Below the pieces are notes generated by a model. The model made no database searches, had not been told where the DNA came from, and saw only the letters and a list, made by a program, of their open reading frames with translations. From a virus, in IMG/VR virus record IMGVR_UViG_3300031857_000094, positions 1 through 64,000 of that record: a DNA stretch of 64,000 nt; one strand, 5' to 3'. Position numbers and translations under genes: made by a program. Position 1 is the stretch's first letter. Every line of letters begins with the position of its first letter. Below, piece by piece: positions 13,943 to 56,431 of the stretch.

Positions 13943-13962
13943 CAGGAGTGCTATATAATAGT

Positions 13963-37484: not shown

Positions 37485-38900
37485 TCAGGCGGTCGTAATA
37501 GCTGTATTCGCTCTTGCTGCTTCGATAGCTTCGTCTTCCTCAATAATAGCCAACGCTTCTAGAACTGGAGTTGTAGGCTTGATTCGTGGATGCTTCTTAA
37601 CTAGATCCTGATATGAATACTTAGTGAGCTTGCTATAGTCAACTTGACTCAATAGCTCCTGAGTTTCCTTTTCGATCTTAGCACTGATTTCCAATCTTCT
37701 CTTTTCCTGCAACTGAGTTGTAGTATTACGACCGTATCCACCTGAACCCCAGTTAACTGTATTAGCATTACCATTTAGCTTTTGATTGTAGGAAGTTTTA
37801 GCAGCAGAGTCAGCTGTAAGATTCGTTTGCGGCGCGATAGTAGAACGGATTCCCATGAACTGTGACAAAGGCTGCTTGAGTGTAGCCATAGCAGATCCAG
37901 CAGCAGCTTCTGCGAACAGATTTTTAAGTTGCACTGGCGGCTTTGGTTTAGGAGGATTAGCTGTTTTCAGCGGCTTCATTGCGTCAAGAACTGGTGTGAT
38001 ACCTGGAGCGGATAGCATCTTAATCGCTCCTCCAGCCATAACCATATTAGGAACCATGCTCTTAATGTTAAATCCCTTACCCCCAAGCGCACCAGCGATT
38101 GCTCCAGCCACCATATTAGATGCTAGTTTGTTTACGTTGATCATCGGGAATGTGCGAGCGATGTATGCAGCTTGAGCCGCAAACGCAGCTGCATTACCTG
38201 CAACAGCAGCAAGATTCGCGACTTCGGACTGTAGATTAACAGCTTTAGCAAGCTCTCCTACACCAGGAATGTCGGATAGGAAATTACCTTTAACTGCTGC
38301 GAAGATAAGTGACGCTGGTCCTTTGACGGCTACATCAAGCAACGTTTTAACTGCTACGATTTGATTTACGATATTGGCTGCTCCACCAACATTAAATGGA
38401 AGCTGCTTGGTTACGTTTCCGATAACAGCTTTAACTGCTTGAACTGGCGCATCTAATCCAGGCGGAAGGAAGTTACTAGCTAGACCAGCGACTGCTCCTA
38501 CAGCTCCGCCCGCAAGAGCACCTTTAATTGCGCTTTCAATTTGATTTTTTGATGTGTATTGGGGCCCGCAGAAGGGATCATTAACAGCAGCCAATGCACC
38601 ATACAGCGCTCCACCAATCGCTCCACCCAACACGCCATCAACGTCTCCTGTGAGAGCTGCTATTAGGCTTGGATCCATTTGATACACTGGAGGAACAAAT
38701 CCTAACGGATCACTCAGCATAAGTGAAACGTTGCGTGTATCTACCAGATCGACGTAGCCGCGTGACAAATCGTCCAACTGATCTACAATAAGATCAAGCC
38801 CAGTATACTGAACTTGTTTACCACATAAAACGAATACGTCTCCTGGAACAACATTAGGATAACGCATTCTTAGTCGAGTGTCAATCTGTAGCTGATCCAT
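37485..38900 (-). CDS. Ala/Gly-rich virion-associated protein, 471 residues
   Basis: I do not recognise the full protein. The N-terminal 60 residues (NVVPGDVFVLCGKQVQYTGL) look like a small beta domain that docks to other baseplate parts. The centre has several glycine-zipper segments (GALAGGAVGAVAGLASNF, AGAIAGALGG) that could insert in membranes or pack as helices. The C-terminal 90 residues are charged and helical. It lies between the gp5-type spike genes and gp25, in the baseplate operon, so a hub or ejection-associated role is likely. The gene faces the antisense promoter at 37445-37473. Confidence 0.65.
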   Translation of the reverse strand: MDQLQIDTRLRMRYPNVVPGDVFVLCGKQVQYTGLDLIVDQLDDLSRGYVDLVDTRNVSLMLSDPLGFVPPVYQMDPSLIAALTGDVDGVLGGAIGGALYGALAAVNDPFCGPQYTSKNQIESAIKGALAGGAVGAVAGLASNFLPPGLDAPVQAVKAVIGNVTKQLPFNVGGAANIVNQIVAVKTLLDVAVKGPASLIFAAVKGNFLSDIPGVGELAKAVNLQSEVANLAAVAGNAAAFAAQAAYIARTFPMINVNKLASNMVAGAIAGALGGKGFNIKSMVPNMVMAGGAIKMLSAPGITPVLDAMKPLKTANPPKPKPPVQLKNLFAEAAAGSAMATLKQPLSQFMGIRSTIAPQTNLTADSAAKTSYNQKLNGNANTVNWGSGGYGRNTTTQLQEKRRLEISAKIEKETQELLSQVDYSKLTKYSYQDLVKKHPRIKPTTPVLEALAIIEEDEAIEAARANTAITTA

Positions 38901-38992: not shown

Positions 38993-39883
38993 TTATGATG
39001 GATAAAATCCACCTATGCCAGGGATAAGTCCAGCAGTATCGATCTTAGAACCATCATCCGTTTCAACGAGTAATTTACCGCCAGCGCCAATACGAACGTC
39101 GTGATCTTTCGAAAAGATGCCAGCTTTGTATCCTGAAGCGGCCATCAAGGCTCCGCCACTACCACTGCTTATGATATTAATAGCATATTCATCTCGAATA
39201 AATGTTCCTAATTTAGCGTTTGACTGTATCTGTGATTCTGACTTTAAACTCATAATATCAGCAGAAGCGATACCCATCTGACCCCCAGAGCCAAATCCCA
39301 TACCGCCTGCCGATACAACTTGATGCTCGCCACCAGTGAGCGTTGCGTTATGTGAAGCTACGATCTGTGTGTTTTCGCCACCAATCGTTTGTTTATTATC
39401 CGATCCAACAGACTCCGTATTATTTCCACCAGTAATTGTTTCACGATCGCCAGATGTACGATGCGAAGTCTTACCGTTGACTTGAACGCGCTGATCACCA
39501 CCAAACTCCATGATATTTTTGCCAGCAGCTTTTACCTTAAAGTCCCCGTGAGTAACGATCTCGTAATCACCGCGAACTTCATGTTTCAATTTTCCTGTAA
39601 CGTGCATGCAAACGTCACCAGCAATAATTACGCTGAAGTTTCCAGTAACAACTTGATCTATACCTTTATTGAAGATCTGTTGTTCTTTTCCTTCTACCTT
39701 CGTAATTCTAACGCCGTCATCTTTAATTTCAATGCGCGTTCCTGAAGCGTGACGAATATTAATACGCCTATCACCAGGCGTGTTATCGTATTCGACCATG
39801 TGACCAGCTTCTGTGGTTACAACATGATTTCCTAGATATTGGGATTTTTTCCCGCCTGGATCTTCTTCGTTAATTTTTGCCAT
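38993..39883 (-). CDS. Baseplate spike protein, gp5 C-terminal beta-helix type
   Basis: This 296-residue protein starts MAKINEEDPGGKKSQYLGNH and has a stretch of short repeats (VTGNFSVIIAGDVCMHVTGK, then VRGDYEIVTHGDFKVKAAGK) that build the triple-stranded beta-helix needle of gp5/VgrG spikes. The segment GTRIEIKDDGVRITKVEGKE near residue 50 is typical of the helix entry. In T4 this needle, a lysozyme and an OB-fold form one gp5 chain. Here the needle is a separate gene and no lysozyme is fused. The OB-fold is at 40681-41076. Confidence 0.85.
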   Translation of the reverse strand: MAKINEEDPGGKKSQYLGNHVVTTEAGHMVEYDNTPGDRRINIRHASGTRIEIKDDGVRITKVEGKEQQIFNKGIDQVVTGNFSVIIAGDVCMHVTGKLKHEVRGDYEIVTHGDFKVKAAGKNIMEFGGDQRVQVNGKTSHRTSGDRETITGGNNTESVGSDNKQTIGGENTQIVASHNATLTGGEHQVVSAGGMGFGSGGQMGIASADIMSLKSESQIQSNAKLGTFIRDEYAINIISSGSGGALMAASGYKAGIFSKDHDVRIGAGGKLLVETDDGSKIDTAGLIPGIGGFYPS

Positions 39884-39896
39884 AATTTATCCTATC

Positions 39897-40679
39897 CTAT
39901 ACTAAACTACCAAATGTTGAGTTTGTAGGCAGATTATCAGTATTAACTCCTGTCGTGCCTACAACAGCGTCAGATAATGCTTGCGTTTCTTGCTGTGCCT
40001 TTTGTACATCGCCTAACAAATCTTGAGCTTGATCAGCTGATCCTAATGTCAAATCATATGTATCTTCTGCATCATCGCTTCCATCTGTAGCTCTAAACGC
40101 ATGTTTTCCTGGTGGCAATGCTGCATCTTTTACTTTTGTTTTTTGATCGCTCGTTGGTCTAGGATCTTCAGACCTTTCTTCATTACCAGCAGCAAGAAGC
40201 GTGGTTGATGATTGATCGTCGAGCGTAGGATGAACAGAGGGAAGTGGCGTTAGTCCATTCTTTCCGCCAAACAGCAGATTAATCGAGTTCATTAATAAAC
40301 TAAGTCTAGCATATCGCTGGCGCAAATTATATTGCTGCTGAGAAGCTGATTTTCTTGTAGGCGGCGCAGTAATAATAAGCTCATTGACTGTATCGTCAGA
40401 AGCAATGATTTGATTTGTTGCGATATCGTATACGATAGCCTCTACGTCATACGTTCCTGGATATAGCGGAGAGTCAAAACGCAGCTTCCACTCATTGGGC
40501 GTTTTCGTTTCGTCTAGTCCAAGATTACCTTCGAACAGTCGATATGGAACATAGTTCACATAGACTTCAATCGACTCCTTCGCTTTTCCAGGCGCACTGA
40601 AACGCTGGAACTCTACGGTCCCTGTGAGCGTGGGAGTAGTATTAGAAGTCGTAAGTTTCTTTACGGTTATTTTAGCCAT
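39897..40679 (-). CDS. Ig-like structural protein of the baseplate hub region
   Basis: This 260-residue protein has an N-terminal beta-sandwich of about 100 residues (TTSNTTPTLTGTVEFQRF, then SPLYPGTYDVEAIVYD), similar to bacterial Ig-like domains that bind ligands or decorate virions. The rest is helical and low-complexity (ADQAQDLLGDVQKAQQETQA). It lies between the gp5 OB-fold and gp5 needle genes, one base from the OB gene, so it probably sits on the spike or hub. Confidence 0.65.
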   Translation of the reverse strand: MAKITVKKLTTSNTTPTLTGTVEFQRFSAPGKAKESIEVYVNYVPYRLFEGNLGLDETKTPNEWKLRFDSPLYPGTYDVEAIVYDIATNQIIASDDTVNELIITAPPTRKSASQQQYNLRQRYARLSLLMNSINLLFGGKNGLTPLPSVHPTLDDQSSTTLLAAGNEERSEDPRPTSDQKTKVKDAALPPGKHAFRATDGSDDAEDTYDLTLGSADQAQDLLGDVQKAQQETQALSDAVVGTTGVNTDNLPTNSTFGSLV

Positions 40680-40680
40680 A

Positions 40681-41076
40681 TTACTTCTTTACGTTCGATC
40701 CAGATCCAGGCGCATTATCGCCAATATTCTTTTTCGTTTGAACATGTGGAAGCGATCCAATAATTACTGGAATCTGCTCGCCGTCATCATCCATAAAAAA
40801 TCCTACGACTTTACTGTTCTCGACTAATCCTGTAGGACTGCATCCCGTTCCGCTAATGCTTGCTGAAGTCGTTGGAGTCATAACATACGCCCAAGGAAGT
40901 TCTTTTGTTGGGAGTTTGCTTTTATCTTCCGTATGTCTTCCGTGAATGCGAATCTTTACGCGCCCAATCTTCAGCTCATCTTTCTCACCTGAGAACTGTC
41001 CTGTGCCACGATCTTCAACAGTGGCGATAAACCACTTCAAACCGCTCTGACCAACCATTGATTTGAATAGTGACAT
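40681..41076 (-). CDS. gp5: Baseplate hub gp5 OB-fold protein (no lysozyme domain)
   Basis: This 131-residue protein matches the N-terminal OB-fold of gp5: FIATVEDRGTGQF, KIGRVKIRIHGRHTED, LPWAYVMTPTTSAS and a late strand VVGFFMDDDGEQIPVIIGSL. T4 gp5 is 575 residues with OB-fold, lysozyme and needle; here the OB-fold stands alone. It overlaps the gp27-like gene by one base, matching the gp27-gp5 contact. The absent lysozyme appears to be replaced by domains in the 791-residue hub protein at 46757-49132. Confidence 0.86.
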   Translation of the reverse strand: MSLFKSMVGQSGLKWFIATVEDRGTGQFSGEKDELKIGRVKIRIHGRHTEDKSKLPTKELPWAYVMTPTTSASISGTGCSPTGLVENSKVVGFFMDDDGEQIPVIIGSLPHVQTKKNIGDNAPGSGSNVKK

Positions 41077-42344
41077 TAAGAAGCTACTCCAGAAGGTGAT
41101 GATTGTTTATTGGCGTGAGAGTCAGACTTACACTCAAGAATGCAGTTATATTTAACGTCCTGCACTTCTTTATATAGCACGTGTCGGACTGACGTTACGA
41201 GGAACGTTCCCGAGCGGGGATCAAGTGAAGTGCCGTCTTGGTTAGATGGAATATTCAATTTAATTTTAATTCCAGGTTTCAGTGAAGTATCACCAGGAAC
41301 GCGAACGTTCATAATGAGATTGTCTAACTGCAATGCAGCCGACGATTGTGCGGCGTGTTCTGGAAGAGTGCGCTTATATTCTACAGCCTTGGGATCGCGC
41401 GCTTTTACGAATCCGCTATCCTTTGCTGATGCGCCTGGTGCAACGATGAAGGAACGAACAGCGCCAGTCTCAGATTTTTTATCTTCAGTCAGTGTATCTT
41501 TTCCTGTATGATTTCCCTCACCAGCGCCATCGCGCTTGCCTTTCTTAGGAACTGAGTCGATTTTTCCTACGAGCGGATCATAATAATAAACATGCTCTGA
41601 CTCAGCACCATTTTCAGTTGATTCATTTCTATTAAAATCTTTTGCCTGATCGAACGAGATAATATTCTTTGATTCGTCTGACGCTCCTGCGCTTCCGATA
41701 TTCTGACTGGCGTATGCGAACGTTGCTGTCTCAGATCCCTTGAGCATAGCGTCGATTGTCTTGAAGTGATATCCATCGCGATCTTGCCAATACAGATAGT
41801 TCGACGCTTTGGATTCGGAAGACATACCTTCCTTAGCAGCCCAACGAATCGCAGTCGTGGGAGAGCGACCAGTTCCAACGTAGCTCTGATTCCCCTGCGT
41901 TTCTTCGTTAGTGACTAGATCTTTTTTAATTGTATTTGTTTCTTTTACATAATCATCATGCCATTCTTTCACCATCTCAGATATCTTTTTGCCGTTATAT
42001 GCTTTCGCGATATCCTTACGGTGATTATCAATCATTTCTTGGGGAACGCCGACGATGAGATACATATCGAGATTATCTTTCGCACGAATGCGATCCGTGA
42101 CGCGCTCGACCTTGAATTTCATACGGATTGATTCGCCTTTGCGAGCAGCGAAGTTGATAGATATTTCCTCGCCGCCCTTCAGCTTCGCGCGCTCGTGGAA
42201 TCCGCTACCATCGGATAGCGTAATATTGCACGATGCTGCTGTCGAGTAAACGCTCTCGAAATAATCTAGCTGAGTGACAAGGTTTTTAATATCGACGTTG
42301 TCAACCGTGCACTCATTAAATATACCGCCGCCTACATCACTCAT
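41076..42344 (-). CDS. gp27: Baseplate hub protein, gp27-like
   Basis: This 422-residue protein (T4 gp27 is 391) has the tail-tube-like start (DVGGGIFNECTVDNVDIKNL) with TQLDYFESVYSTAASCNITL, and a second such domain near the C-terminus (LDNLIMNVRVPGDTSLKPG, then FLVTSVRHVLYKEVQDVKYN). The gp27 trimer links spike to tube. The middle 150 residues are low-complexity and variable. It overlaps gp53 by four bases. The family call is supported by fold-level pattern and context more than by strict identity. Confidence 0.78.
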   Translation of the reverse strand: MSDVGGGIFNECTVDNVDIKNLVTQLDYFESVYSTAASCNITLSDGSGFHERAKLKGGEEISINFAARKGESIRMKFKVERVTDRIRAKDNLDMYLIVGVPQEMIDNHRKDIAKAYNGKKISEMVKEWHDDYVKETNTIKKDLVTNEETQGNQSYVGTGRSPTTAIRWAAKEGMSSESKASNYLYWQDRDGYHFKTIDAMLKGSETATFAYASQNIGSAGASDESKNIISFDQAKDFNRNESTENGAESEHVYYYDPLVGKIDSVPKKGKRDGAGEGNHTGKDTLTEDKKSETGAVRSFIVAPGASAKDSGFVKARDPKAVEYKRTLPEHAAQSSAALQLDNLIMNVRVPGDTSLKPGIKIKLNIPSNQDGTSLDPRSGTFLVTSVRHVLYKEVQDVKYNCILECKSDSHANKQSSPSGVAS

Positions 42345-42934
42345 CTTACAAACGTGCCTTCTTCAAAGATATATGGGTGCTGTTCTTTAATCAGCTGCAG
42401 ATAGTTCAAGTCAATTAAATATATGTGACGTCTTTGCTCATTTAAATTGTTTTCATAATCAAACACAGAAACAGATTTTCTTTTATCTGCTGCCAGCGTG
42501 AGATATGTGGTATAGTCCACTTCTAATGTTCTTTCAGGCAAAATGCGCTGAATGCCGTTCTCAACAATCAATCCTTGTGACTGCAAAATCTGCTCGTAAT
42601 GATGAACAGTTTGATAAGCATTTCGAACGGTGCCATATTTTTGAGCAAGATAGGAATTGAACTGCTCATAGGAAAGTGGCCACTCATAATATGGATCATG
42701 AATTTCGTTGGCTAACAGAATCAGCCAGTCCATAGTTTCATCGTCGTAATAATCGTATGCTACTGTATCTGGACGCTCGCCATCCTGAACATAGTATTCG
42801 TCGAAGTTAACTCCAGCGTTTCTTACGAAATTAGCCACAGAAAATCTACGAGTGATATCTGTCACTGCAATAGTTTGCTTCGTTCCAGGAATGCGATAGG
42901 GAATAGTAGGATGGGCTCTAAAATAAAATGCCAT
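42341..42934 (-). CDS. gp53: Baseplate wedge protein gp53
   Basis: This 197-residue protein (T4 gp53 is 196) contains the conserved core RRFSVANFVRNAGVNFDEYY, DGERPDTVAYDYYDDETMDW and LILLANEIHDPYYEWPLS, in which a bound wedge contacts its neighbour. It lies between gp48 and the gp27-like gene and overlaps the latter by four bases. Confidence 0.93.
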   Translation of the reverse strand: MAFYFRAHPTIPYRIPGTKQTIAVTDITRRFSVANFVRNAGVNFDEYYVQDGERPDTVAYDYYDDETMDWLILLANEIHDPYYEWPLSYEQFNSYLAQKYGTVRNAYQTVHHYEQILQSQGLIVENGIQRILPERTLEVDYTTYLTLAADKRKSVSVFDYENNLNEQRRHIYLIDLNYLQLIKEQHPYIFEEGTFVR

Positions 42935-44062
42935 TTATCTTCCCTCTTGTTCTGGATTTAGTCGAGGTAAGGATCCATCCATTGTGCTAGGAACATTATC
43001 TGCTCTTCTATGCTGTATGATATTTTCTCTTCCAACTGGAGCAGGTGGTGTTGGCTGATTGCGAAGTCCTCTCGTAAGAGTATTCTTCGTGATAACTTCC
43101 GTTTCCTTAAATGATAGTGACAGAGTAACTTCTGCTGGAGCAGGAATACCACTGCCGTCAGCGTCACGAATATATGCTGGGAATCCCTGTCCGTGATAGT
43201 CGATACGAACGTCGGTACATACTGATGGCTCAAGCTCGAACAGATATGATGGATGACGGAATTTAATTTTAAAGAACTCAGGATATTTAAAGAATAATCC
43301 ACCAGCGAGATATTCTGGATGCGAGTAAAACTTAAACATCTCGCAAATTAAATGAATATCATTTGATTCTTTTCTGCTTCGTGGAGATAGTTTCCAGCTG
43401 AACGTATGATCGCGGAAGCCAACGCCTGTGAATAATACAACCTTATGTGGATTAACCGCTACGCCGCCTAGCACTTTTAGTGCAGCATTTACGCCTTCAG
43501 CGCCGACACCAGGAATAGAAGCGGCTTTAGTGGCTGCTACAGTTGTTGCTAGGCCTGCGGCTCCATTTTGTGCAGCCGTTGCTATTGCGCTACTGGCTGT
43601 TCCCATCTGTGCTTCTGTTTCCAGATCGCGATTTCCATACATGTTGCGATCAAATGGTTTTAGTGCTGCACCAGCCGCTGGTCCTAAATCTTGCTCAGTA
43701 TATTGTGGATTATAATCTGTAGATAAGCTGGAGGGCATTGGCAGTCGAATCGTGCCGCCATTAATTATACTTCCTCTAGCTCCAGGCAGACTGCTAGCAA
43801 TAACATCCGTCGCGAAACCTTTTGTTTCTTGCGCAACGAATTCAATCCAGTGATCGTTATCAACTAGATCTTCTGGAAACTGAACAGAGGCACCAGCATA
43901 TGGATCTGCTGTTGAAGCAGATTTACCCATAAGAGAATAAAGCGAAGCGCCTGCAGCTATAGCTAGTCCAACACCACCAACAATTCTTGCTTTGTCTGCT
44001 ACGCTGATTCTATCGTTTCTGAGGTTTCTGCTGCTACCGCTTGTTCTTGGTGCTCTTGCCAT
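42935..44062 (-). CDS. gp48: Baseplate tail-tube cap protein gp48-like
   Basis: This protein is 375 residues from ATG 44062, chosen because AAAGGGA lies just upstream; an ATG eight codons earlier (44086) is less likely. It contains VQFPEDLVDNDHWIEFVAQE near residue 60, and a tube-initiator-like C-terminal domain (FTGVGFRDHTFSWKLSPRS, then LEPSVCTDVRIDYHGQGFPA). T4 gp48 is 364 residues and caps the hub to start the tube with gp54. The N-terminal part has an Ala/Gly hydrophobic stretch. It faces gp4 across a short divergent region. Confidence 0.82.
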   Translation of the reverse strand: MARAPRTSGSSRNLRNDRISVADKARIVGGVGLAIAAGASLYSLMGKSASTADPYAGASVQFPEDLVDNDHWIEFVAQETKGFATDVIASSLPGARGSIINGGTIRLPMPSSLSTDYNPQYTEQDLGPAAGAALKPFDRNMYGNRDLETEAQMGTASSAIATAAQNGAAGLATTVAATKAASIPGVGAEGVNAALKVLGGVAVNPHKVVLFTGVGFRDHTFSWKLSPRSRKESNDIHLICEMFKFYSHPEYLAGGLFFKYPEFFKIKFRHPSYLFELEPSVCTDVRIDYHGQGFPAYIRDADGSGIPAPAEVTLSLSFKETEVITKNTLTRGLRNQPTPPAPVGRENIIQHRRADNVPSTMDGSLPRLNPEQEGR

Positions 44063-44087
44063 TAAAATCCCTTTCGTGAGATACATT

Positions 44088-44095
44088 ATTTATAT
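44088..44095 (-). promoter_or_regulatory. Late promoter box for the gp48 baseplate operon
   Basis: The minus strand reads TATAAATA exactly, 26 bases before the gp48 ATG, in the divergent region to gp4. No equally good box faces gp4 on the plus strand. Confidence 0.72.
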
Positions 44096-44111
44096 TGAAA
44101 TACATAGAGTC

Positions 44112-44555
44112 ATGGCAGCATATAGAGGTAGATTTCAACCGAAGAATCCCAGTAAGTATAAGGGCGATCCTACGAATATCGTTTATAGATCTTCGTGGGA
44201 GTTGCGCTTTATGAACTATCTGGACAGCAATCCCAATGTTATTCAGTGGGCTTCTGAAGAATTATTCATTCCATATAAATCTCCGCTCGATGGTAAGTGG
44301 CATCGCTATTTCCCTGACTTCATTATTCGTATGAGAGATAAGGACGGAAAAACGCTCGTGAAGATGATTGAGATCAAACCGCGCTCTCAGTCTGTTCCTC
44401 CACAACCAAAAGCCAAAGGCGCGCACAGCAAGAAGTATCTACGAGAGGTGGCGACATTCGGAATAAATAGTGCTAAGTGGCACGCAGCGAAAGAATATTG
44501 CGCTGACCGTAACTGGGAATTCGTCGTACTCACAGAAAAAGAATTAGGGATTTAA
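44112..44555 (+). CDS. gp4: Head completion protein gp4
   Basis: This protein is 147 residues (T4 gp4 is 150), starting at ATG 44112; the frame extends further upstream only as antisense to gp48. It has a PD-(D/E)XK nuclease-like core: RSSWELRFMNYLDSNPNVIQ, then WHRYFPDFIIRM with its Asp, and KMIEIKPR with the Glu and Lys. It acts on packaged heads to allow tail joining. It overlaps the next gene by one base and begins the plus-strand late cluster. Confidence 0.92.
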   Translation: MAAYRGRFQPKNPSKYKGDPTNIVYRSSWELRFMNYLDSNPNVIQWASEELFIPYKSPLDGKWHRYFPDFIIRMRDKDGKTLVKMIEIKPRSQSVPPQPKAKGAHSKKYLREVATFGINSAKWHAAKEYCADRNWEFVVLTEKELGI

Positions 44556-45166
44556 TGGTCGCTTACGTTTTTGATAGAGTATTACAGCGAGGATCGCAAG
44601 CGGGTGTGGCTCCGTCAATTAAACGCGAGTCGCGTCAGTGGTTCCGTCAGCAGACTAAGAATTTAACTGTTAGTCCTACTCGCATGATTCGCAGCGATCG
44701 CACAAGATTAACGGATAAGCCGCTACTAGGTCGCATGTATCTGTTTCAGTATGATCCTAAAGGAAAGAAAACATTACCTTACTATGATAGATTTCCTCTT
44801 GTTTTTCCGATCGATTCTACACGCACCAGTGGATTTGCCAATAGTGGAGGATCGTTCTTGGGAATTAATCTCCACTATCTACCGCTCCCTCTTAGAGCCA
44901 GATTAATGGATGCGCTGTATGATACGATCACAACAAAAGAATTAGACGAGAGCACTCGTATTCGTATCTCATATAATATTCTACAGCAAGCGAGCAAGTA
45001 TCGTTTCTTCAAGCCTTGCATCAAGAGATATCTTATCTCTCACGTTAAATCTAGATTCTTTTATATCGAGCCGACTGAATGGGAAATGGCATTATTCTTA
45101 CCGCTCGATAGATTTGTCGGAGCTAATATGTCGCGTATCTATCGCGACAGTCGTAACAGGATCTAA
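44555..45166 (+). CDS. Conserved T4-like virion/head-completion protein (possible gp2 equivalent)
   Basis: This 203-residue basic protein has a strongly patterned core: LLGRMYLFQYDPKGKKTLPY, YDRFPLVFPI, GINLHYLPLPLRARLMDALY and RFFKPCIKRYLISHVKSRF. This pattern recurs in T4-like aquatic phages directly after gp4. In T4 the neighbours of gp4 include gp2, which protects packaged DNA ends, so a gp2-like role is possible, but the sequence does not prove it. It starts on the last base of gp4. Confidence 0.72.
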   Translation: MVAYVFDRVLQRGSQAGVAPSIKRESRQWFRQQTKNLTVSPTRMIRSDRTRLTDKPLLGRMYLFQYDPKGKKTLPYYDRFPLVFPIDSTRTSGFANSGGSFLGINLHYLPLPLRARLMDALYDTITTKELDESTRIRISYNILQQASKYRFFKPCIKRYLISHVKSRFFYIEPTEWEMALFLPLDRFVGANMSRIYRDSRNRI

Positions 45167-45168
45167 CA

Positions 45169-45852
45169 ATGCCATTTAATATCGCAGATTTCAACTCAGA
45201 AATAGCACGATCAGGTATCGCTTCGACATCACAATTCGAAGCATGGATTCTTGGTGGACCTGGATCGCGTTATGGCATAACTGGAATTCTCGAGCAGTAT
45301 GGATTGAAAGAAGGAATGCGCCTTCGTATCGAAGCAGCGAATATGCCAGGACGTCAGCTCGTCACGCTGGATCAAAACTATTATGGGCCTGTTCGTCGTA
45401 TTCCGTATCGCTTTAACAATCAGCCAGTCACGCTCTCAGTCATTCTATCCAAAGACATGCGCGAGCGCGAGATCTTTATGAAGTGGCAGGATTTCTTTGT
45501 CGGTCACTATCGTACGAACGTAAATCGCTCGAATATGGCTGGAATGTTTGATGGAAAATACTTTAATGATGGAGTCGGTAGCATCGACATCGTTCAGTAT
45601 TCTTATCCAAATAATAATGGTGGATACGGATATTATTTCGAATCTGAGGGCGGAACGTATGAAGTTCAGAATGTGATTACGCTCGTAGAAGCATACCCAG
45701 TCAATGTCAACGATATTCAGATGTCGTGGAACGATGAGGGATATGGTAAGCTACAAGTGGAAATCAATTATCGTTATGCTATCGAAGATAATACAAACTT
45801 TGGAAGTGGTAAGAATTACGAGATCGATCGCGCTGGTCGTGGAAGATATTAA
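45169..45852 (+). CDS. gp54: Tail tube initiator gp54-like
   Basis: This 227-residue protein (T4 gp54 is 320) opens MPFNIADFNSEIARSGIAST and has RIEAANMPGRQLVTLDQNYY, then GPVRRIPYRFNNQPVTLSVI. The C-terminal strand VEAYPVNVNDIQMSWNDEGY shows the tube-protein fold shared with gp19. It would sit on gp48 to start tube polymerisation. It is two bases after the preceding gene and 17 bases before gp26. Confidence 0.82.
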   Translation: MPFNIADFNSEIARSGIASTSQFEAWILGGPGSRYGITGILEQYGLKEGMRLRIEAANMPGRQLVTLDQNYYGPVRRIPYRFNNQPVTLSVILSKDMREREIFMKWQDFFVGHYRTNVNRSNMAGMFDGKYFNDGVGSIDIVQYSYPNNNGGYGYYFESEGGTYEVQNVITLVEAYPVNVNDIQMSWNDEGYGKLQVEINYRYAIEDNTNFGSGKNYEIDRAGRGRY

Positions 45853-45869
45853 TTAAATTGAGGTGAATT

Positions 45870-46577
45870 ATGGCATTACCTAAGGTTGCGACTCCACGCT
45901 TTTCGCTGGAGCTACCGTCTAATGGAAAAAGAGTATCGTTTAGATCATTCTTGGTGAAGGAAGAAAAAGTATTGCTGATGGCCGCTCAGTCGGAAGATCC
46001 GTTGGCTATGATTGATGCAGTGAAGGATGTTATTGCGTCGTGTATCGTTGATGATCTCGATGTTAATAAGCTGCCCTACTTTGATCTGGAATATCTGTTT
46101 CTGAATATTCGCGCCAAGTCTATCGGCGAAATCGTCAAGATGGAGTATCGTCATATCGACGGCGTGAACTATCAGGGAATTAAATGCGAAGCGGTGACGC
46201 CCGTAGAGATTAATCTAGAGCAGGTCAAGGTTCAACGCGGCGAAGGACATACGAGCAAAGTCAAGCTCGACGATAGACTAGGAATTGAACTGAGATATCC
46301 TACGATTAATGACGTCAAGCTGATCACGGGTGGTAATGACGAGATCGAAATGCTAGCTCGTTGCATTCTTAGCGTATATGACGCGAATGATGTGTATGAG
46401 CCAGATAATCTACAGGATGCAGTTCAGTTCGTTGAGTCGTTGAATTCAAATCAGTTCGCTGAGATTATGAAGTTTATTGACACGATGCCCAAGCTAAGAC
46501 ACACATTTAAATATAAGTGCAAGGGATGTGGACAGGAAGATACCATTACGCTGGAGGGTATGTCTGATTTTTTTTAA
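45870..46577 (+). CDS. gp26: Baseplate hub assembly protein gp26
   Basis: This 235-residue protein (T4 gp26 is 208) matches the T4_baseplate family: TPRFSLELPSNGKRVSFRSF, LVKEEKVLLMAAQSED and LPYFDLEYLFLNIRAKSIGE. It ends in a single CxxC (YKCKGCGQED), likely half of a zinc site. GAGG is well placed before the ATG. Its stop overlaps the gp51-like start by one base (TAATG). Confidence 0.9.
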   Translation: MALPKVATPRFSLELPSNGKRVSFRSFLVKEEKVLLMAAQSEDPLAMIDAVKDVIASCIVDDLDVNKLPYFDLEYLFLNIRAKSIGEIVKMEYRHIDGVNYQGIKCEAVTPVEINLEQVKVQRGEGHTSKVKLDDRLGIELRYPTINDVKLITGGNDEIEMLARCILSVYDANDVYEPDNLQDAVQFVESLNSNQFAEIMKFIDTMPKLRHTFKYKCKGCGQEDTITLEGMSDFF

Positions 46578-46753
46578 TGATCCTCTCTCATAATACGCTT
46601 GCGAACTATTATCAGACTAACTTTTCGTTGATGCAATACCACAAATATTCACTGAGTGACGTTGAAACAATGGTTCCGTGGGAGAGGGATATCTACGTTA
46701 AGATGCTGGTAGATTATCTAGAGAAGCTGGAAGAAGAATCTAAGAGAAGGTAA
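46577..46753 (+). CDS. gp51: Baseplate hub assembly catalyst gp51-like (58 residues)
   Basis: This short gene starts at the ATG overlapping the gp26 stop (TAATG at 46575-46579) and ends three bases before the next ATG. The product has FSLMQYHKYSLSDVETMVPW then ERDIYVKMLVDYLEKLEEE. This mix of HKYSL-D and PWERDIY is typical of gp51 equivalents in T4-like and other myophages, where they follow gp26 and help hub assembly. The class often overlaps or frameshifts from the upstream gene; here it is simply coupled. Its size hides it from most ORF cut-offs. Confidence 0.82.
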   Translation: MILSHNTLANYYQTNFSLMQYHKYSLSDVETMVPWERDIYVKMLVDYLEKLEEESKRR

Positions 46754-46756
46754 TAA

Positions 46757-49132
46757 ATGGCAGATAAAGAGAGCGGCGAAGATATTCTCCGTGCCATTTT
46801 AGAAAAGGGAAATAAGAACGTCAAGGATCAAGTCGCAAAGATCCTAGAAGAACAGACGGCTGCTCCCACTCCAGCAAAGCCAACGAAAGCTCGTAAGAAG
46901 AAACTTGGTGTAGTCGTAGGAAAGGTCGGACAGTCGCGTTTCTTCAGAACTCCCGAAGGTGCAGTCGTCGATGAGAATGGAAAGCCAGTTTCTATTGGAC
47001 TCGCGAAAGCATTTTCTCAATACGAGCCCAAAGCGAAAGCAGCTGCTCAAACAAATGAACCAAAGCCCAGTGGTGGGCTCGCGCGAGCGCTCGAGCGTGA
47101 TCTACGTCGCAGCATACAGCTATCCAATAATATCGTCAAGGCCCAGGAATTAATTAATAAAAGAATTCCTGTGATGATTAATAATACGACTAATCTTGTC
47201 GATAAGATGTCAAAACAAAATGAACAGATAATTGGTTCATTCATACAGCAAAATCAAGAATTCCAAGATAAAGTTGTAGAGGCTATGACTGGCGTGAAAG
47301 CTCCTACTCGCGCGGGAGGAGCGAAAGCAAAGCTATCCAGAGGCGTAGGTGCTTCTCGTGCAGCTCGTCGTGTTAAGCCACGAGATACAGAACGCGCTCA
47401 GTATGTTCGTGATAGAGCTGAGCGTATAGCTGATATTCGTATGAAGCGCAATATCGCTTCCATCGCTGGCGCTGGATTACTGGGTGCTGGTGTTGGACTT
47501 GGTGCAGCTGCTGGAATCAACGCGCTTATCAATAAAGCTCCGTCTGATGCTGAGCCGTCTGGTCCTATCACCAAGTTCGAGGGACTAGGAAGCATTTCGC
47601 AGAAGTATGAGTCAGGAAACAAAGGCGTTCATACAGTATCCTCAGGCGCTGGTGATCCAGGCGGCGTATCGTATGGAGCACATCAGCTCGCGACTAATAC
47701 TGGAACGATGGCTCGCTATCTCGCATCAGCAGAAGCAAAAGATTATGCAGGACAGTTCGCAGGATTACAGCCAGGAACTGAGCCGTTCAATCAAAAGTAT
47801 AAGCAAGTCGCAGCAAGTGATCCACAGGGATTCGCTGCATCACAGAAAGCATTTATCACAAGAACACACTTCGATCCAGTATCAAAGCATGCTGGTGATC
47901 TTGGCTGGGCTGTAGCTGATCCACGAGTTCAAGAAGTTCTGTATAGCATGGGCGTTCAGCACGGCGGCGCTAAGAAGATTGTTTCTCAGGCTGGTAATCC
48001 GCAAGGCAAGAGCGTAGAAGAGCAAGTCAAGATGCTGTTCGAAGCGCGAAAAAACTACGTCGCTGGCGTATCTATGCCAGAGGGAACGAGACAGTCGCTC
48101 TATAGAAGATACGCAAGCGAGCAGCGAGATGTGCTTGCTATGACTGCTGCAGCTGGAGCTGCAACTACAACTGCTTCTGCTCCTGCAGCTGCTCCATCAA
48201 GTCCTGCCGCTGGTGCTGCTGCGACTGCTGCAACTAGTCGCGCTCAAGCACCTGGTCCATCTGGTGGTCCTGCGCAATCTCTAGCTGCTCAAACTGCTGC
48301 TGGTGCTCGCGCGCAAGCTCCTGGTCCTTCGGGTGCACCTGCTCAAGTTCAAGCAGCGACTACTGCAAGACAACCTGGTCCTGGTGCTCCTACTGCTGAA
48401 CAGATGGGAGCAGGCGGTGGAGCTGGCAACGTCAGAATGACTAATCAGGGAGCGACGAGAAACAAGCCAATTACTCCGTATCTATTGAGTGCTATTTCTA
48501 CAGCAGTCACTGATGTATATGGTCCTGGTGCTCGCGCTGAAATTTATTCTGGAGGACAAGAGCCATATCCGAGCCGACAGAGAACTGGATCTACACGACA
48601 CGACGGCGGTATGGCTGCTGACGTTTATGTTTATGTCGGTGGACGTAAAGTATCGGGAGACGATCTTGGTCGTTTAGCTCAGTATTGGCTTGCTCGCAGA
48701 CTCGGTGGTGCTGGTATTGAAATGCGTGGCGGCGGTATTCACTTGGATCAGCACACGAATCGTCATCCATACTGGTTTTATAATGCTGGCGAAACAGCTA
48801 AGTCACGCGCGATGGTTATGGCTGGCGTTCAGGGACAGATGCCTGAAGCCGCTGGATCAACTATGATAGCACAAGGACCTGGCGCTCCAGCTGGCGCTTC
48901 TGCTGGTGGAGCTCCTCGTCAATACGGCGCACTTGGTGCTTCATCGCGCGCAAATGAAATGAGAGAGATGCAAGCAACAACAGCTAGACCCATTATCATA
49001 GAAAATAGAGTTATGAATCATCAGCAATTCATTACTAGAAACTCTTATCCTGTAGGTCAAAGAAGCGAACAGTTTAATCCACTCGAAGTTGCTGTTGCCG
49101 CAGGAATCGGTAAAGCTCTGAGGTTGTTCTAA
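46757..49132 (+). CDS. Hub/tape-measure-like protein with muramidase and M15-peptidase domains
   Basis: This 791-residue protein has a charged N-terminal half with coiled coil (about 105-180), a hydrophobic Gly/Ala helix at about 232-257, and two predicted peptidoglycan-hydrolase domains. Domain one (about 276-462) resembles the VgrG3-type muramidase: KYESGNKGVHTVSSGAGDPG with likely catalytic E285, then GGVSYGAHQLATNTGTM. An Ala/Pro/Gly linker (about 463-555) follows. Domain two (about 565-690) has zinc-peptidase M15 spacing: STRHDGGMAADVYV with H615 and D622, and GGGIHLDQ with H662. It occupies the place of central hub/tape genes after gp26 and gp51. Since gp5 here lacks lysozyme, this protein probably opens the cell wall during infection. 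Confidence 0.8.
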   Translation: MADKESGEDILRAILEKGNKNVKDQVAKILEEQTAAPTPAKPTKARKKKLGVVVGKVGQSRFFRTPEGAVVDENGKPVSIGLAKAFSQYEPKAKAAAQTNEPKPSGGLARALERDLRRSIQLSNNIVKAQELINKRIPVMINNTTNLVDKMSKQNEQIIGSFIQQNQEFQDKVVEAMTGVKAPTRAGGAKAKLSRGVGASRAARRVKPRDTERAQYVRDRAERIADIRMKRNIASIAGAGLLGAGVGLGAAAGINALINKAPSDAEPSGPITKFEGLGSISQKYESGNKGVHTVSSGAGDPGGVSYGAHQLATNTGTMARYLASAEAKDYAGQFAGLQPGTEPFNQKYKQVAASDPQGFAASQKAFITRTHFDPVSKHAGDLGWAVADPRVQEVLYSMGVQHGGAKKIVSQAGNPQGKSVEEQVKMLFEARKNYVAGVSMPEGTRQSLYRRYASEQRDVLAMTAAAGAATTTASAPAAAPSSPAAGAAATAATSRAQAPGPSGGPAQSLAAQTAAGARAQAPGPSGAPAQVQAATTARQPGPGAPTAEQMGAGGGAGNVRMTNQGATRNKPITPYLLSAISTAVTDVYGPGARAEIYSGGQEPYPSRQRTGSTRHDGGMAADVYVYVGGRKVSGDDLGRLAQYWLARRLGGAGIEMRGGGIHLDQHTNRHPYWFYNAGETAKSRAMVMAGVQGQMPEAAGSTMIAQGPGAPAGASAGGAPRQYGALGASSRANEMREMQATTARPIIIENRVMNHQQFITRNSYPVGQRSEQFNPLEVAVAAGIGKALRLF

Positions 49133-50826
49133 TGGCTATTTCAAATCTAGTTACGCCAAGCGGAAATGTAAATAGACCTAGCGTCGCTGCTATGTTTGGT
49201 CAGCGCGCATCTAATGATAACTTCGCGAAAGAGTCGGATATCATTTCTGGATCGTTCGTTGCTTCTGCTGCGAACTCTATCACACAGCTCAATACTCAGT
49301 TAGCTAAACTGCAGGAAAGTTCTAAAGCAATTGTCAAGTCGATTAACGACTCGGTGAATAAGATTAAGACAGTCGACAAAGATATGTCGCAGCGTTTCAG
49401 AAAACTGAATGCTGAAATCGCTGCTTCACGTCCAGACTTTGGTAAGTTTCTTTACAAAGCTCCTCCGCTTCCATTAGCAGAAATTGCTCCAGGATCTATT
49501 CAGCAAGGGAAGTTGGCGAATACTGCTGGATTAGTTCCACCAGCACTACCAATCCCAGATATTGATCTTCCTAATAGAAAACGCACTTCAACGGGTGGTG
49601 GTAATGAACCAACAAGATCAAAAAAACCTGTTACTCAAACTGAACGTCCGCCAGTCACTAAAGCTGAACCACCAAAAGCTCCCGTTGATACGGAAAAGCC
49701 AAGAGCTCCTGTTGATACGGAAAAGCCAAGAGCTGGTGCTCCCGAATCGACTGCTAGACCATCACCAGCTCCTCCTCAAGGAGCACCAGAAAGAGCGCAG
49801 CCAGTATTAGATGAGCGAGGAAGAGGATCGCAGTATAGAGATCCACAGAGCGGTAGATTTGTAAAGGTAACTCCAGAAGAACTAGCTGCTAAACAAAGCA
49901 AACTGTCTAAGACATTAGCAGGCGGAGGAAAAGCTACAGGTATGATATTGGGGCCTGTTGCTACAGTATTTTCTGCTGTTATTGCTGGTATGGAAGCGAA
50001 AGATGAATATAAGAAGTATCAGGAAACTGGTGATAAGCAACATCTAAAAAGAGTTTATGAAGTTATCGGTGAAGAAGCTGGATCAACAGGCGGCGGATTT
50101 GCTGGCGCGATCGCAGGTGCATTCGCTGGTGGACCTATTGGTTCAATCGCAGGTGGTTTAGTTGGTCTCGTGAAAGGTGGTGATACTGGTCTCGCTGTTG
50201 GTAGAGCATTGTATGCGCACAATCACGAGGGAATGGATTTCATGCAAGCGTTAGAAATAGAAACGCTTAGACTCGCTAAAGAAAACAAAGATCGTTTAGT
50301 TGCTGGACAAAAAGAAAGAATGGAAGGTAGCACCATAGTCACTAGAGGTGCGCAACAACAGCTCAGCAGATTACAGGCAGATGCCGCAGATATCACTGCT
50401 AGATTAGACAGATCACTAGAAAATGCTGTAGGCGATTCTGCAGGATTCACAGGTGCGTCTGGTGATATTCTTCAACAAGCAACTAAACCTACAGAAGCTC
50501 CAGGTGGTGGTGAAGCTGGTGAAGAAGGTGGAGAACGCGGCACCACGTCTGCTCCTACAGGAGAAGCGACTGCTGATAAAACAGCAGTGGGTGCGCCTAC
50601 AGCAACAACGCCAACTCCTACTACACCATCAGCTCCTCCTCCGCCCCCACGACCAAATCAAGGAGCAGGTGGAGCAGATGTAGTTGTAAACAACACAACG
50701 AATACGACTGCTTCAAGTTCAGGTGGCGAAGGACAGAACGTCACTAACCCTAACATGAAACTGAATGCACATAATCCTTTCATAAAGGATTCGCTTGGTC
50801 GTCAGATGCTTCAAGAGCACAATTAA
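49132..50826 (+). CDS. Hub/tape-measure companion protein
   Basis: This 564-residue protein has an N-terminal coiled coil (AANSITQLNTQLAKLQESSK, about 43-105), a Pro-rich linker with a tandem repeat of APVDTEKPR, and a strong glycine-zipper region at about 315-350 (GGGFAGAIAGAFAGGPIGSI). A helical segment and a Gly/Pro/Thr-rich C-terminus follow. I recognise no catalytic motif. It overlaps the 791-residue gene by one base and ends the plus-strand late cluster just before the terminator region. Zipper and coiled coil suggest a tape-measure or membrane-inserting ejection protein. Confidence 0.7.
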   Translation: MAISNLVTPSGNVNRPSVAAMFGQRASNDNFAKESDIISGSFVASAANSITQLNTQLAKLQESSKAIVKSINDSVNKIKTVDKDMSQRFRKLNAEIAASRPDFGKFLYKAPPLPLAEIAPGSIQQGKLANTAGLVPPALPIPDIDLPNRKRTSTGGGNEPTRSKKPVTQTERPPVTKAEPPKAPVDTEKPRAPVDTEKPRAGAPESTARPSPAPPQGAPERAQPVLDERGRGSQYRDPQSGRFVKVTPEELAAKQSKLSKTLAGGGKATGMILGPVATVFSAVIAGMEAKDEYKKYQETGDKQHLKRVYEVIGEEAGSTGGGFAGAIAGAFAGGPIGSIAGGLVGLVKGGDTGLAVGRALYAHNHEGMDFMQALEIETLRLAKENKDRLVAGQKERMEGSTIVTRGAQQQLSRLQADAADITARLDRSLENAVGDSAGFTGASGDILQQATKPTEAPGGGEAGEEGGERGTTSAPTGEATADKTAVGAPTATTPTPTTPSAPPPPPRPNQGAGGADVVVNNTTNTTASSSGGEGQNVTNPNMKLNAHNPFIKDSLGRQMLQEHN

Positions 50827-54174: not shown

Positions 54175-54357
54175 TTAACCTTTCGGAACACAAGCCAGTT
54201 TGTATTGATCCCACATTCCACGACCGTATTTCTTTTCTTCGATGAACTTCAGCGCATACATGCAGGATTCGTATGTATTGAACTCTTGGAACTTTACATT
54301 CTGACCGTTGCCAGCATTGCCAGAAAAGTATGTGATGACTATGAGAACGTAGATCAT
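54175..54357 (-). CDS. Small exported or membrane-anchored protein (60 residues)
   Basis: The first 15 residues (MIYVLIVITYFSGNAG) are hydrophobic and suit a signal or anchor sequence. The remainder (FNTYESCMYALKFIEEK, two Cys) is a compact helical domain like small periplasmic proteins common in phages. It overlaps kdsA by four bases and is followed by the cupin gene. Function unknown. Confidence 0.65.
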   Translation of the reverse strand: MIYVLIVITYFSGNAGNGQNVKFQEFNTYESCMYALKFIEEKKYGRGMWDQYKLACVPKG

Positions 54358-55181
54358 CGCCTTAAACTCCGTTTGGAGATATAATCCAATTCTATTAAAT
54401 CATATAGTAGTTGCTCGAAATTGTCAAGACGAACCATGTTCGGACCATCGCTTGGAGCGGATTCTGGATTCTGATGAACTTCAATGAACAGAGCAGCCAC
54501 GCCAACAGCTACAGCAGCGCGGGCCATCGTAGGCACGAACTGACGTTGTCCGCCAGAGCTTGTGCCATTACCACCAGGAAGCTGAACTGCGTGAGTGCAA
54601 TCCATGATGACACGGTCAGTATATTGCTTCATCACTTCTAGCGAACGCATATCGACCACAAGATTATTGTAGCCAAACGTTGTTCCGCGTTCAGTGAACA
54701 GATACTTATCACAGCCAAACGTTCTTAGCTTCTCAGCTACGTTTGCCATTTCCCACGGAGATAGGAACTGACCCTTCTTCACGTTGACTGGCTTACCACT
54801 CAGTGCAGCAGCTTGAATCAGGTCAGTCTGTCGGCAAAGGAACGCAGGAATCTGAATGATATCAGCTTGAACTGCTTCGCATTGCCAAGGTTCGTGAACG
54901 TCCGTGAGAACCTCGATTCCTCGAGCACGGACGGCCTCCATTCCGTAAAACGCCTCGTCGAAGCCGCCACCTCTACTACTATTCGCGGAACTTCGATTTG
55001 CTTTATCGAAAGAGGTCTTATAAATGAAGTTGATTTCTGTATCGAATCTATTACCAACGCTGAAGCAGATATCACGCAGTGCAGTAGCCATTTCCACTGC
55101 GTGATCCTTAGTTTCAAAAGCACAAGGTCCAGCGATAATGCTCAGGGGTTTATCATTCCCGCAGTTGTCATAGAAGCTCAT
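54354..55181 (-). CDS. kdsA: 3-deoxy-8-phosphooctulonate (KDO-8-P) synthase
   Basis: This protein is 275 residues from ATG 55181 (E. coli KdsA is 284). It condenses phosphoenolpyruvate with arabinose-5-phosphate to make KDO-8-P, the precursor of the LPS inner core. Signature segments are KTSFDKANRSS, TDVHEPWQ, IQIPAFLCRQTDL, NVKKGQFLSPWEM and FGYNNLVVDMRSLE. The Cys in IIAGPCAFE marks the metal-dependent class II (E. coli has Asn here); the other ligands are the HAVQ His, the FIEVH Glu and the SDGPN Asp. It lies in an early operon with the cupin-DUF1289 gene. A host-derived auxiliary gene affecting LPS is the likely reading. Confidence 0.93.
   Translation of the reverse strand: MSFYDNCGNDKPLSIIAGPCAFETKDHAVEMATALRDICFSVGNRFDTEINFIYKTSFDKANRSSANSSRGGGFDEAFYGMEAVRARGIEVLTDVHEPWQCEAVQADIIQIPAFLCRQTDLIQAAALSGKPVNVKKGQFLSPWEMANVAEKLRTFGCDKYLFTERGTTFGYNNLVVDMRSLEVMKQYTDRVIMDCTHAVQLPGGNGTSSGGQRQFVPTMARAAVAVGVAALFIEVHQNPESAPSDGPNMVRLDNFEQLLYDLIELDYISKRSLRR
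54399..54427 (-). promoter_or_regulatory. Sigma70-like promoter inside kdsA
   Basis: The minus strand has TTGACA at 54427-54422, 17 bases, then TATGAT at 54404-54399, within the 3' end of kdsA. It would transcribe the 60-residue gene, cupin-DUF1289, gp33, the nucleotidyltransferase-like gene and gp59. Confidence 0.72.
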
Positions 55182-55183
55182 GA

Positions 55184-55768
55184 TTAGTCCCACAGAGAGC
55201 GATAGTACCTACCAAACAAACGAAGACCGTTTTGAATACGTTGATTGTGTGCATCTAGTGCATCTTTGTCCCAACCACTTACTTCGGCATAGAACAGATC
55301 ATAGTCGTTATCGTTCTTGAGTTGTTCGAACGTCCATACGAGTTCGTCCATCACCCAGTTATAGCGATCCTGTGCGTTCGTGTCGCTGTGACCAAAATCA
55401 GTTTCATCACCCTTACCGATGTGAGGAACGTCTTCAGCATCTGGATGAAAGAAACCGTGATTCGTGTCACGAAGCTGAACCAGCATGGGATGAATGATAA
55501 AAGCGAGCGTGTGATCCATGGACCAAGTATCGTAAGGATCAATGCGAACCTTTACATCGCGCTCACGATCGCCGATCATTTTGTTGACTGTTGCGTTTAG
55601 AACATCTTGAATGATATCGCAGATACGCTCGATGAACTTATCAGTCTTGGTGTATTCACTATCTTGAACAGACCAATATGACTTGTCGTGTTTCCACTCC
55701 ATATACTTGTCGAATAAAGTGTATGCGCTGATATGAGTTGTGCGATAAGGACCAATGTAAACTTTCAT
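55184..55768 (-). CDS. Conserved phage protein of unknown function (194 residues)
   Basis: Start chosen at ATG 55768, with GGAG upstream; the open frame extends into the tRNA gene only as read-through. The product begins MKVYIGPYRTTHISAYTLFD and holds VRIDPYDTWSMDHTLAFIIH, PMLVQLRDTNHGFF and DALDAHNQRIQNGLRLFGRY. The pattern recurs in T4-like aquatic phages without an assigned role. The many His and Asp could form a metal site. It ends two bases before the kdsA start. Confidence 0.72.
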   Translation of the reverse strand: MKVYIGPYRTTHISAYTLFDKYMEWKHDKSYWSVQDSEYTKTDKFIERICDIIQDVLNATVNKMIGDRERDVKVRIDPYDTWSMDHTLAFIIHPMLVQLRDTNHGFFHPDAEDVPHIGKGDETDFGHSDTNAQDRYNWVMDELVWTFEQLKNDNDYDLFYAEVSGWDKDALDAHNQRIQNGLRLFGRYYRSLWD

Positions 55769-55783
55769 AACAATCTCCAAAAA

Positions 55784-55859
55784 TGGTTCGGGGTGATGGG
55801 ATCGAACCACCAACCTACGGATTCAAAGTCCGCTGTTCTACCAATTGAACTAACCCCGA
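55784..55859 (-). tRNA. tRNA-Gln (anticodon TTG)
   Basis: A full 76-base cloverleaf can be folded. The acceptor stem is TCGGGGT/ACCCCGA with discriminator A and an encoded CCA. The D arm is GTTC/GAAC, the anticodon stem GCGGA/TCCGT with loop CTTTGAA (anticodon TTG), and the T arm GGTGG/CCATC with loop TTCGATC. It reads CAA and CAG Gln codons. It lies between the 74-residue and 194-residue genes. It is the only tRNA seen in the window. Confidence 0.95.
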
Positions 55860-55863
55860 ATGA

Positions 55864-56088
55864 TTACTTACCTGCGTGTTCGGTGAGAAGTTGAGTTACG
55901 TTCTTGACTGTTGGGTCGCGAATGTCGTCGATGAACTTCATAAGCTCGTCGGCTTTCTTGATAACTTCAGCTGTGGTTGGAAATGGTTTCTGCTCACCGC
56001 CGCGTTCAGCAGCGATAAGATATTCCGCATCGCACATCGACTGTGCCATTTGAAGAACGGAAAGACGGATATGCTTTTCTTCGGACAT
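55864..56088 (-). CDS. Small conserved phage protein (74 residues)
   Basis: This acidic, helical protein (MSEEKHIRLSVLQMAQSMCD, then TTAEVIKKADELMKFIDD) has no recognisable domain. GAGG precedes the ATG. It follows the tmRNA gene by about 20 bases and ends four bases before the tRNA-Gln, so all three may share the transcript from 56394-56422. Similar short genes occur in T4-like genomes without known function. Confidence 0.68.
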   Translation of the reverse strand: MSEEKHIRLSVLQMAQSMCDAEYLIAAERGGEQKPFPTTAEVIKKADELMKFIDDIRDPTVKNVTQLLTEHAGK

Positions 56089-56109
56089 AGTGAATACCTC
56101 AATGTAGGA

Positions 56110-56387
56110 AAGTGGGGGGATTCTGTTTCCAAGCTCCCCCCGAGCTCATTCTTAGGCAGCTAGTGCGTAAGAGATAGGTGCATTATCGTTTGCATCTAAA
56201 ACGCGCTTTTGGTCTCTTCGCATCTTTACTACGCACGTCGATCCTAGTTCACCCCCATCAAAAACAGTAGCATCCAATCCTTACAGCGATGGTTCACATT
56301 GGGCTTCCTACTGCTTATGGTGGAGGCGGCGGGTACTGCCCCCGCGTCCGAAACGTTTATTCCATACGCCTCAACGACCTTAGCATA
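56110..56387 (-). ncRNA. ssrA: Circularly permuted (two-piece) tmRNA
   Basis: tmRNA rescues stalled ribosomes and tags the peptide. The acceptor piece comes first (about 56387-56318): T-stem GCGGG/CCCGC, acceptor strand CGCCTCC, discriminator A and CCA at 56320-56318. The coding piece starts at 56256 with GGGGGTG, which pairs fully with CGCCTCC and gives the G3-U70 pair that alanyl-tRNA synthetase needs. Its tag frame runs from GCA at 56193 to TAA at 56152 and encodes ANDNAPISYALAA. A 7-bp GGGGGGA/TCCCCCC stem follows the tag. The spacer between pieces (56317-56257) must be removed. The T-loop GGCAGTA is not the usual TTC type. The outer ends are approximate. This layout is typical of alphaproteobacterial tmRNA. 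Confidence 0.92.
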
Positions 56388-56393
56388 GTATTT

Positions 56394-56422: not shown

Positions 56423-56431
56423 GAACTCATT

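Follow-up and report, generated by a model that had tools for sequence, protein, structure and literature searches.

A Split, Lysozyme-Free gp5 and a Two-Slot Hydrolase Protein in the Tail Gene Cluster of a T4-Type Phage: A Probable Entry Lysin

Introduction

The stretch of DNA analyzed here (the window) is 64 kb long and comprises positions 1 to 64,000 of the virus record IMGVR_UViG_3300031857_000094, an 82,568-base fragment. Its source is a T4-type phage, and its tail genes raise the question of how the host cell wall is cut during entry when the spike has no lysozyme. In T4, gp5 is a single chain with a GH24 lysozyme and one bond specificity, whereas here it is split and lysozyme-free. The initial annotation of the window proposed that wall cutting had moved from gp5 to a two-domain hub protein of 791 residues. 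Following up this proposal, we find it most likely, with a probability of roughly 75%, that the 791-amino-acid protein is an entry lysin of the virion, located in the tail, that replaces the gp5 spike lysozyme and that in related phages forms a platform with two enzyme slots.

Results

gp5 Is Divided into Three Genes and Lacks Its Lysozyme

All open reading frames were recovered at the positions given in the initial annotation. As it had stated, gp5 is split and free of lysozyme, and its place is taken by three adjacent, separate genes on the minus strand. An OB-fold protein of 131 amino acids without lysozyme (40,681–41,076) matches PF06714 (1.8e-16) and positions 14–112 of phrog_430, a family annotated as "baseplate hub subunit and tail lysozyme", while a beta-helix needle protein of 296 amino acids (38,993–39,883) matches positions 330–533 of the same family (5.4e-30). 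These two genes cover the two ends of phrog_430, and both products are homologous to their T4 gp5 counterparts. The GH24 lysozyme of a relative aligns to phrog_430 positions 101–303, that is, between the OB-fold and needle matches, and as this part is not covered here, the lysozyme is the portion that is missing. Where gp5 would carry it, there is instead a protein of 260 amino acids with an immunoglobulin (Ig)-like N-terminus (39,897–40,679), which matched only PF19077 (E=0.03) and is conserved in all relatives with coverage. Across these relatives, the OB-fold gene encodes nearly always about 128 amino acids, the exceptions being loci L010 (164 amino acids) and L007 (200 amino acids).

A gp5-type lysozyme encoded elsewhere, which the initial annotation had named as a finding that would speak against its proposal, did not turn up: the T4-type lysozyme family PF00959 matched control genomes but nothing in the 82.6-kb record and nothing in five relatives, among them contigs of 154.7 and 157.6 kb.

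The 791-Amino-Acid Protein Carries Two Predicted Peptidoglycan Hydrolases

The plus-strand open reading frame at 46,757–49,132 encodes a scaffold protein of 791 amino acids with two peptidoglycan-hydrolase domains. The dual-domain protein of the initial annotation is therefore present, but its designation as the hub does not hold, as the gp27-type hub protein is a separate gene of 422 amino acids at 41,076–42,344 on the minus strand (phrog_350, 9e-63), and we dropped the identification of the 791-amino-acid protein with gp27. From the N-terminus, alignments delimit a conserved, helical scaffold core with a QNQEFQDKVIE motif (residues 115–215; 47,099–47,401), which is followed by a Gly/Ala-rich hydrophobic segment (residues 230–262; 47,444–47,542) directly before slot 1 (residues 277–455; 47,585–48,121). 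A Pro/Ala-rich linker (residues 456–555; 48,122–48,421) then leads to slot 2 (residues 556–701; 48,422–48,859), and the chain ends with the conserved motif IIIxNxxxN...FNPL...GKALRLF (residues 747–791; 48,995–49,129). All 19 relatives that were inspected carry the Gly/Ala-rich segment in this position; that of the window protein does not exceed a composition-preserving shuffle in hydropathy.

Slot 1 holds the VgrG3-like muramidase domain that had been proposed. Residues 277–422 match PF21277, the VgrG3-like C-terminal family of the type VI secretion system (T6SS), with E=5.6e-41 and a score of 141 bits against a curated cut-off of 27, and the Vibrio cholerae VgrG3 structures 4NOO and 4NSO are matched at 6e-23 and 9e-23, respectively. 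In the alignment to VgrG3, Glu285 within a KYES motif (47,609–47,611) is the predicted catalytic acid and Asp300 (47,654–47,656) the second predicted catalytic residue, at a Glu-Asp spacing of 15 as in VgrG3, where we take the counterparts of these two residues to be the catalytic pair. Based on this homology, slot 1 is predicted to cut the glycan strand.

Slot 2, previously described as an M15-like zinc peptidase, was modeled with AlphaFold, which gave a predicted LAS fold with a predicted local distance difference test (pLDDT) score of 89 and a predicted template modeling (pTM) score of 0.87. When this model was used in a fold search, the top 38 aligned entries all had the LAS/M15 fold, with Z-scores of 5.0–7.8, and the first unrelated entry followed at 4.1; the LAS/M15 structures matched were Hedgehog, LysECD7, Ply500, LysB4, VanX, ChiX and MepA. 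Searched with slot 2 as a profile, the PDB returned only weak matches to LysECD7 (E=0.22) and an M15C peptidase (E=0.62), and a phmmer search of the PDB with the domain found nothing relevant. Two predicted zinc ligands, His615 and Asp622, lie in the motif H615-xx-G-x-A-x-D622 (HxxGxAxD; 48,599–48,622), and Glu655, a possible catalytic base, is followed by His662, the third predicted ligand (48,719–48,742). The zinc motif was present in 24 of the 24 scaffold proteins checked (in L009 by eye). The model and the motif suggest that slot 2 is an M15-type zinc peptidase, which would cut the stem peptide. Both domains thus match hydrolase folds, and the earlier claim that one tail-operon protein combines hydrolase domains of two different bond classes stands.

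The window-type M15 domain is also found in other phage tail proteins, one from Rhizobium phage RHph_Y65 and one, spike-like, from L035. The latter (L035:7289–10179), which has a DUF2345 beta-helix region, carries Phage_lysozyme2 and the start of a window-type M15 domain, so that in this locus the pair of lysozyme and M15 enzyme is placed on the spike instead of on the scaffold.

The Two Slots Are Exchanged Independently on a Conserved Scaffold

Scans of viral contigs yielded over 20 proteins related to the scaffold, at least 20 of them directly after gp26-gp51; a search of genome contigs yielded none. What these relatives have in common is the core, the Gly-rich segment and the C-terminal motif, whereas the enzymes vary. 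The VgrG3-type domain occupies slot 1 in the window, L003–L006 and L055, and a transglycosylase-like domain of the phiKZ gp144 type does so in L007, L023, L024 and L026–L029; this assignment is based on a profile match to phiKZ gp144 (2e-7), the AlphaFold model being poor (pLDDT 60) and a fold search with it without meaning. Slot 1 is a glucosaminidase in L022 and L025, Phage_lysozyme2 in L011, L021 and L052–L054, and a T4-type GH24 domain in L056, L058 and L059. For the L058 GH24 domain, the nearest phage matches are cyanophage genes named "lysozyme murein" or "endolysin". Slot 2, in turn, is of the window-type M15, VanY, VanY-like or M15_4 type, and in a profile comparison the active sites of the window-type and VanY-type slots did not align. 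As judged from these family matches, slot 1 mostly holds a glycan cutter, of one of five types, and slot 2 is M15-type. We rejected a strict rule of glycan in slot 1 and peptide in slot 2, as L009, L010 and L050 start with M15_4 and have further domains behind it; the one that comes second in L009 has a match to a phage endolysin of solved structure.

Close relatives allow the history of the slots to be followed in the DNA itself: pairs with 95–100% identity in one slot are unrelated in the other, and their flanks are about 90% identical. L022 and L025 are 98% identical in slot 1 but unrelated in slot 2 (41%), while L023 and L025 are 100% identical in slot 2 and unrelated in slot 1 (44%), and the flanks they have in common are 88–93% identical. 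Moreover, all four combinations of VgrG3-type or transglycosylase-like slot 1 with window-type M15 or VanY-like slot 2 occur (the window, L055, L007 and L023). These comparisons are direct sequence evidence that recombination between close relatives exchanges the two slots independently of each other. The initial view that wall cutting had moved from gp5 is too simple, as slot 1 in the window is a repeatedly exchanged site that holds a glycan cutter not of the T4 type.

Position in the Tail Gene Cluster and Proposed Role

The 791-amino-acid gene follows a gp26-type baseplate hub gene (45,870–46,577, +; PF12322, 6.3e-63) and a gp51-like gene for 58 amino acids (46,577–46,753, +), shortened as in cyanophages, which the initial annotation did not contain. 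The gp51-like gene lies between gp26 and the scaffold gene in all 20 loci checked, in L029 as a shortened open reading frame. Downstream, the stop of the scaffold gene is overlapped by the start of a gene for a 564-amino-acid partner protein (49,132–50,826, +), which matches the tape measure family phrog_167 (1.7e-6). Wherever the sequence of a relative extends far enough, the partner comes next after the scaffold, with the exception of L056, where none was matched. The N-terminus of the partner can be aligned among relatives; compared with the N-termini of cyanophage endolysins, the partner has no similarity. In none of eight genomes or records did the T4 gp29 tape measure family PF25671 match at E<=1, which makes the scaffold and the 564-amino-acid proteins the obvious candidates for the tape-measure role.

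Among the Kyanoviridae, genes annotated as endolysins (here E1 and E2) are found in S-SM1, S-CREM2, S-N03 and metaG-MbCM1 in the same order, gp26-gp51-E1-E2, with gp48/gp53 alongside. Two of these phages allow tail length to be compared with protein length: S-CREM2 has a tail of 418 nm and proteins of 1565 and 1456 amino acids, and S-N03 a tail of 138 nm and proteins of 933 and 722 amino acids, a difference in the right direction but seen in two phages only. A simple helix ruler was rejected, as the ratio does not fit it.

We propose that the N-terminal coil, the Gly-rich segment and the C-terminal motif would anchor the 791-amino-acid protein in the tail, where, together with the 564-amino-acid protein, it may be a tape-measure-like or hub-plug component. 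After contraction, the two flexibly linked enzymes would be released into the periplasm, the VgrG3-type muramidase presumably cutting the glycan strand and the M15-type peptidase the stem peptide, and the pair would take over the job of the absent gp5 lysozyme. In the relatives, the scaffold would be a platform that usually presents one of several glycan cutters in slot 1 and one of several M15 peptidases in slot 2.

Could the protein instead be a late lysis endolysin, released through a holin and encoded in the tail operon by chance? PHROG and GenBank do label the cyanophage counterparts endolysins, and the 25 families listed for other parts of the record include no separate lysin. Nevertheless, a core, a Gly-rich segment and a C-terminal motif that are conserved while the enzymes vary would be odd in a soluble lysin. 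The invariant position behind gp26-gp51 and the overlap with the start of the 564-amino-acid gene also speak against this reading. In addition, mass spectrometry of CsCl-purified S-CREM2 virions detected the counterparts, ORF208 and ORF209, in good representation (73 and 71 unique peptides, respectively; PMC10665884), which, by analogy of position, would support the presence of the 791-amino-acid protein in the virion. Overall, we regard a role in late lysis as very unlikely. The authors of that study propose encapsulation of the two S-CREM2 endolysins (PMC10665884), and the 791-amino-acid protein might likewise travel inside the capsid and be ejected along with the DNA like T7 gp16, for which its Gly-rich hydrophobic segment would be suited as part of a pore. 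Yet its gene belongs to the baseplate/tube cluster, beside the tail tube, gp26 and gp51, and, PF25671 not having been found, the scaffold and 564-amino-acid proteins fit that tail role; we regard carriage in the capsid as decidedly improbable.

A further alternative concerns slot 2, which could have the LAS fold and be an inactive wall-binding remnant rather than an active peptidase. No family hidden Markov model matches it, and the closest fold is that of Hedgehog, which has a zinc site but, to our knowledge, no proven peptidase activity. As close relatives retain both the HxxGxAxD motif and the third His, the motif is kept in slot 2 throughout, and the other M15 types in this slot match catalytic families (VanY, M15_4), we consider a loss of activity unlikely. 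Returning to the entry lysin, several observations weigh against it. Slot 2 had no match in Pfam or NCBIfam up to E=1, its best Foldseek E-value was 0.025, and its best Z-score of 7.8 is below 8. No sequence similarity was detected between the scaffold and the N-termini of the cyanophage endolysins, and the analogy for a virion location is therefore one of gene position alone; nor has the 564-amino-acid protein any similarity to T4 gp29. Finally, another lysin could lie beyond the fragment that the record represents.

Other Genes of the Window and Possible Host

The tail genes of the window include tail sheath, gp8, a baseplate wedge protein, gp26, tail tube (45,169–45,852, +; phrog_45, 3.8e-16), gp27 and a gp48/54-type gene. 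One strand carries, in this order, needle, Ig-like, OB-fold, gp27, gp53 and gp48/54 genes, and the opposite strand tube, gp26, scaffold and the 564-amino-acid protein; both orders are identical in all relatives with coverage, apart from the unmatched partner in L056. A 471-amino-acid protein (37,485–38,900, −) that adjoins gp25 has Ala/Gly-rich hydrophobic repeats and is conserved in relatives with coverage; family searches with it gave no match.

The window also encodes a permuted transfer-messenger RNA (tmRNA) of the two-piece type (56,061–56,426, −) with the tag ANDNAPISYALAA, beside a tRNA-Gln (55,784–55,859). As this tmRNA matches the alphaproteobacterial family alpha_tmRNA of Rfam (RF01849, 3.3e-33), it hints at an alphaproteobacterial host; a search for psbA as a host clue found none. 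Other genes encode a 687-amino-acid protein (8,102–10,165, −) with a CHASE2 sensor (PF05226, 1.4e-39) and an adenylate/guanylate cyclase domain (PF00211, 4.8e-20), which is unusual in a phage, two TctC-type tricarboxylate-binding proteins (13,948–14,937, +; 16,222–17,142, −) and a DAHP synthase-like protein (54,354–55,193, −; PF00793, 1.8e-61). The curli-secretion families CsgG (2.9e-52) and CsgF (2.7e-17) were found among the remaining open reading frames of the 82.6-kb record.

Discussion

An entry lysin of this kind would mean that puncturing and wall cutting are separated in T4-type tails. The relatives also provide a natural set of matched scaffolds that differ only in their entry enzyme, and thereby make it possible to test what each bond specificity contributes to infection. 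Moreover, the slots clearly exemplify recent exchange of domains in a protein at the tape-measure position, a class for which a large survey of mosaicism in phage proteins was unable to confirm it (PMC10684548). The analysis further suggests that the common marine cyanophage annotation "endolysin" is wrong in function. As a tentative generalization, it is quite possible that many T4-type phages outside the T-evens gave up the spike lysozyme and that a two-slot platform at the tape-measure position does the entry lysis, its slots exchanged independently and probably fitting the host wall; the marine cyanophage "endolysins" would in that case be entry lysins under a wrong name and, at the same time, the missing tape measures.

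It is well established that tape measure and tail tip proteins can carry lysin domains (PMC6116005), and the arrangement described here is not unique: three complete Kyanoviridae genomes show the same displacement of the lysozyme, and the hub of Anabaena phage A-1(L) carries more than one hydrolase. In S-SM1, S-CREM2 and S-N03, gp5 has the OB fold and no lysozyme match, and the sole GH24 domain of each genome is in E2. That of S-SM1 combines GH24 with a sub-threshold M15_3 match, and E2 of metaG-MbCM1 a cell-wall hydrolase with M23. The Kyanoviridae differ from the window in having gp5 as one gene, where the window has three, and in enzyme sets that are partly different. The hub gp15 of A-1(L) has lysozyme-like, endoglucanase and peptidase domains, of which the latter two degrade host cells, and for the spike of this phage only an OB fold and a beta domain are described (PMC10966104). 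There, the enzymes are within the hub itself, whereas here the gp27-type protein is without enzymes and a separate protein carries them.

With T4 gp5, the window shares the homologous OB fold and beta-helix needle and, presumably, the role in cutting the wall at entry. Rhizobium phage RHph_Y65 has, downstream of its tube gene, a tail protein (gp296) in which Phage_lysozyme2 precedes the same M15-like type, on a scaffold that differs from that of the window. A glycan-cutting and a peptide-cutting domain are also joined in one chain in phi29 gp13, a tail protein of the virion; it differs from the 791-amino-acid protein in belonging to a podovirus, in its location at the tail knob and in having M23 rather than M15, and we know of no module exchange in it. 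Lastly, the slot-1 domain is homologous to the C-terminal muramidase of Vibrio cholerae VgrG3, with the catalytic pair and its spacing kept, but the VgrG3 domain is fused to a T6SS spike, and its counterpart in the window to a tail scaffold.

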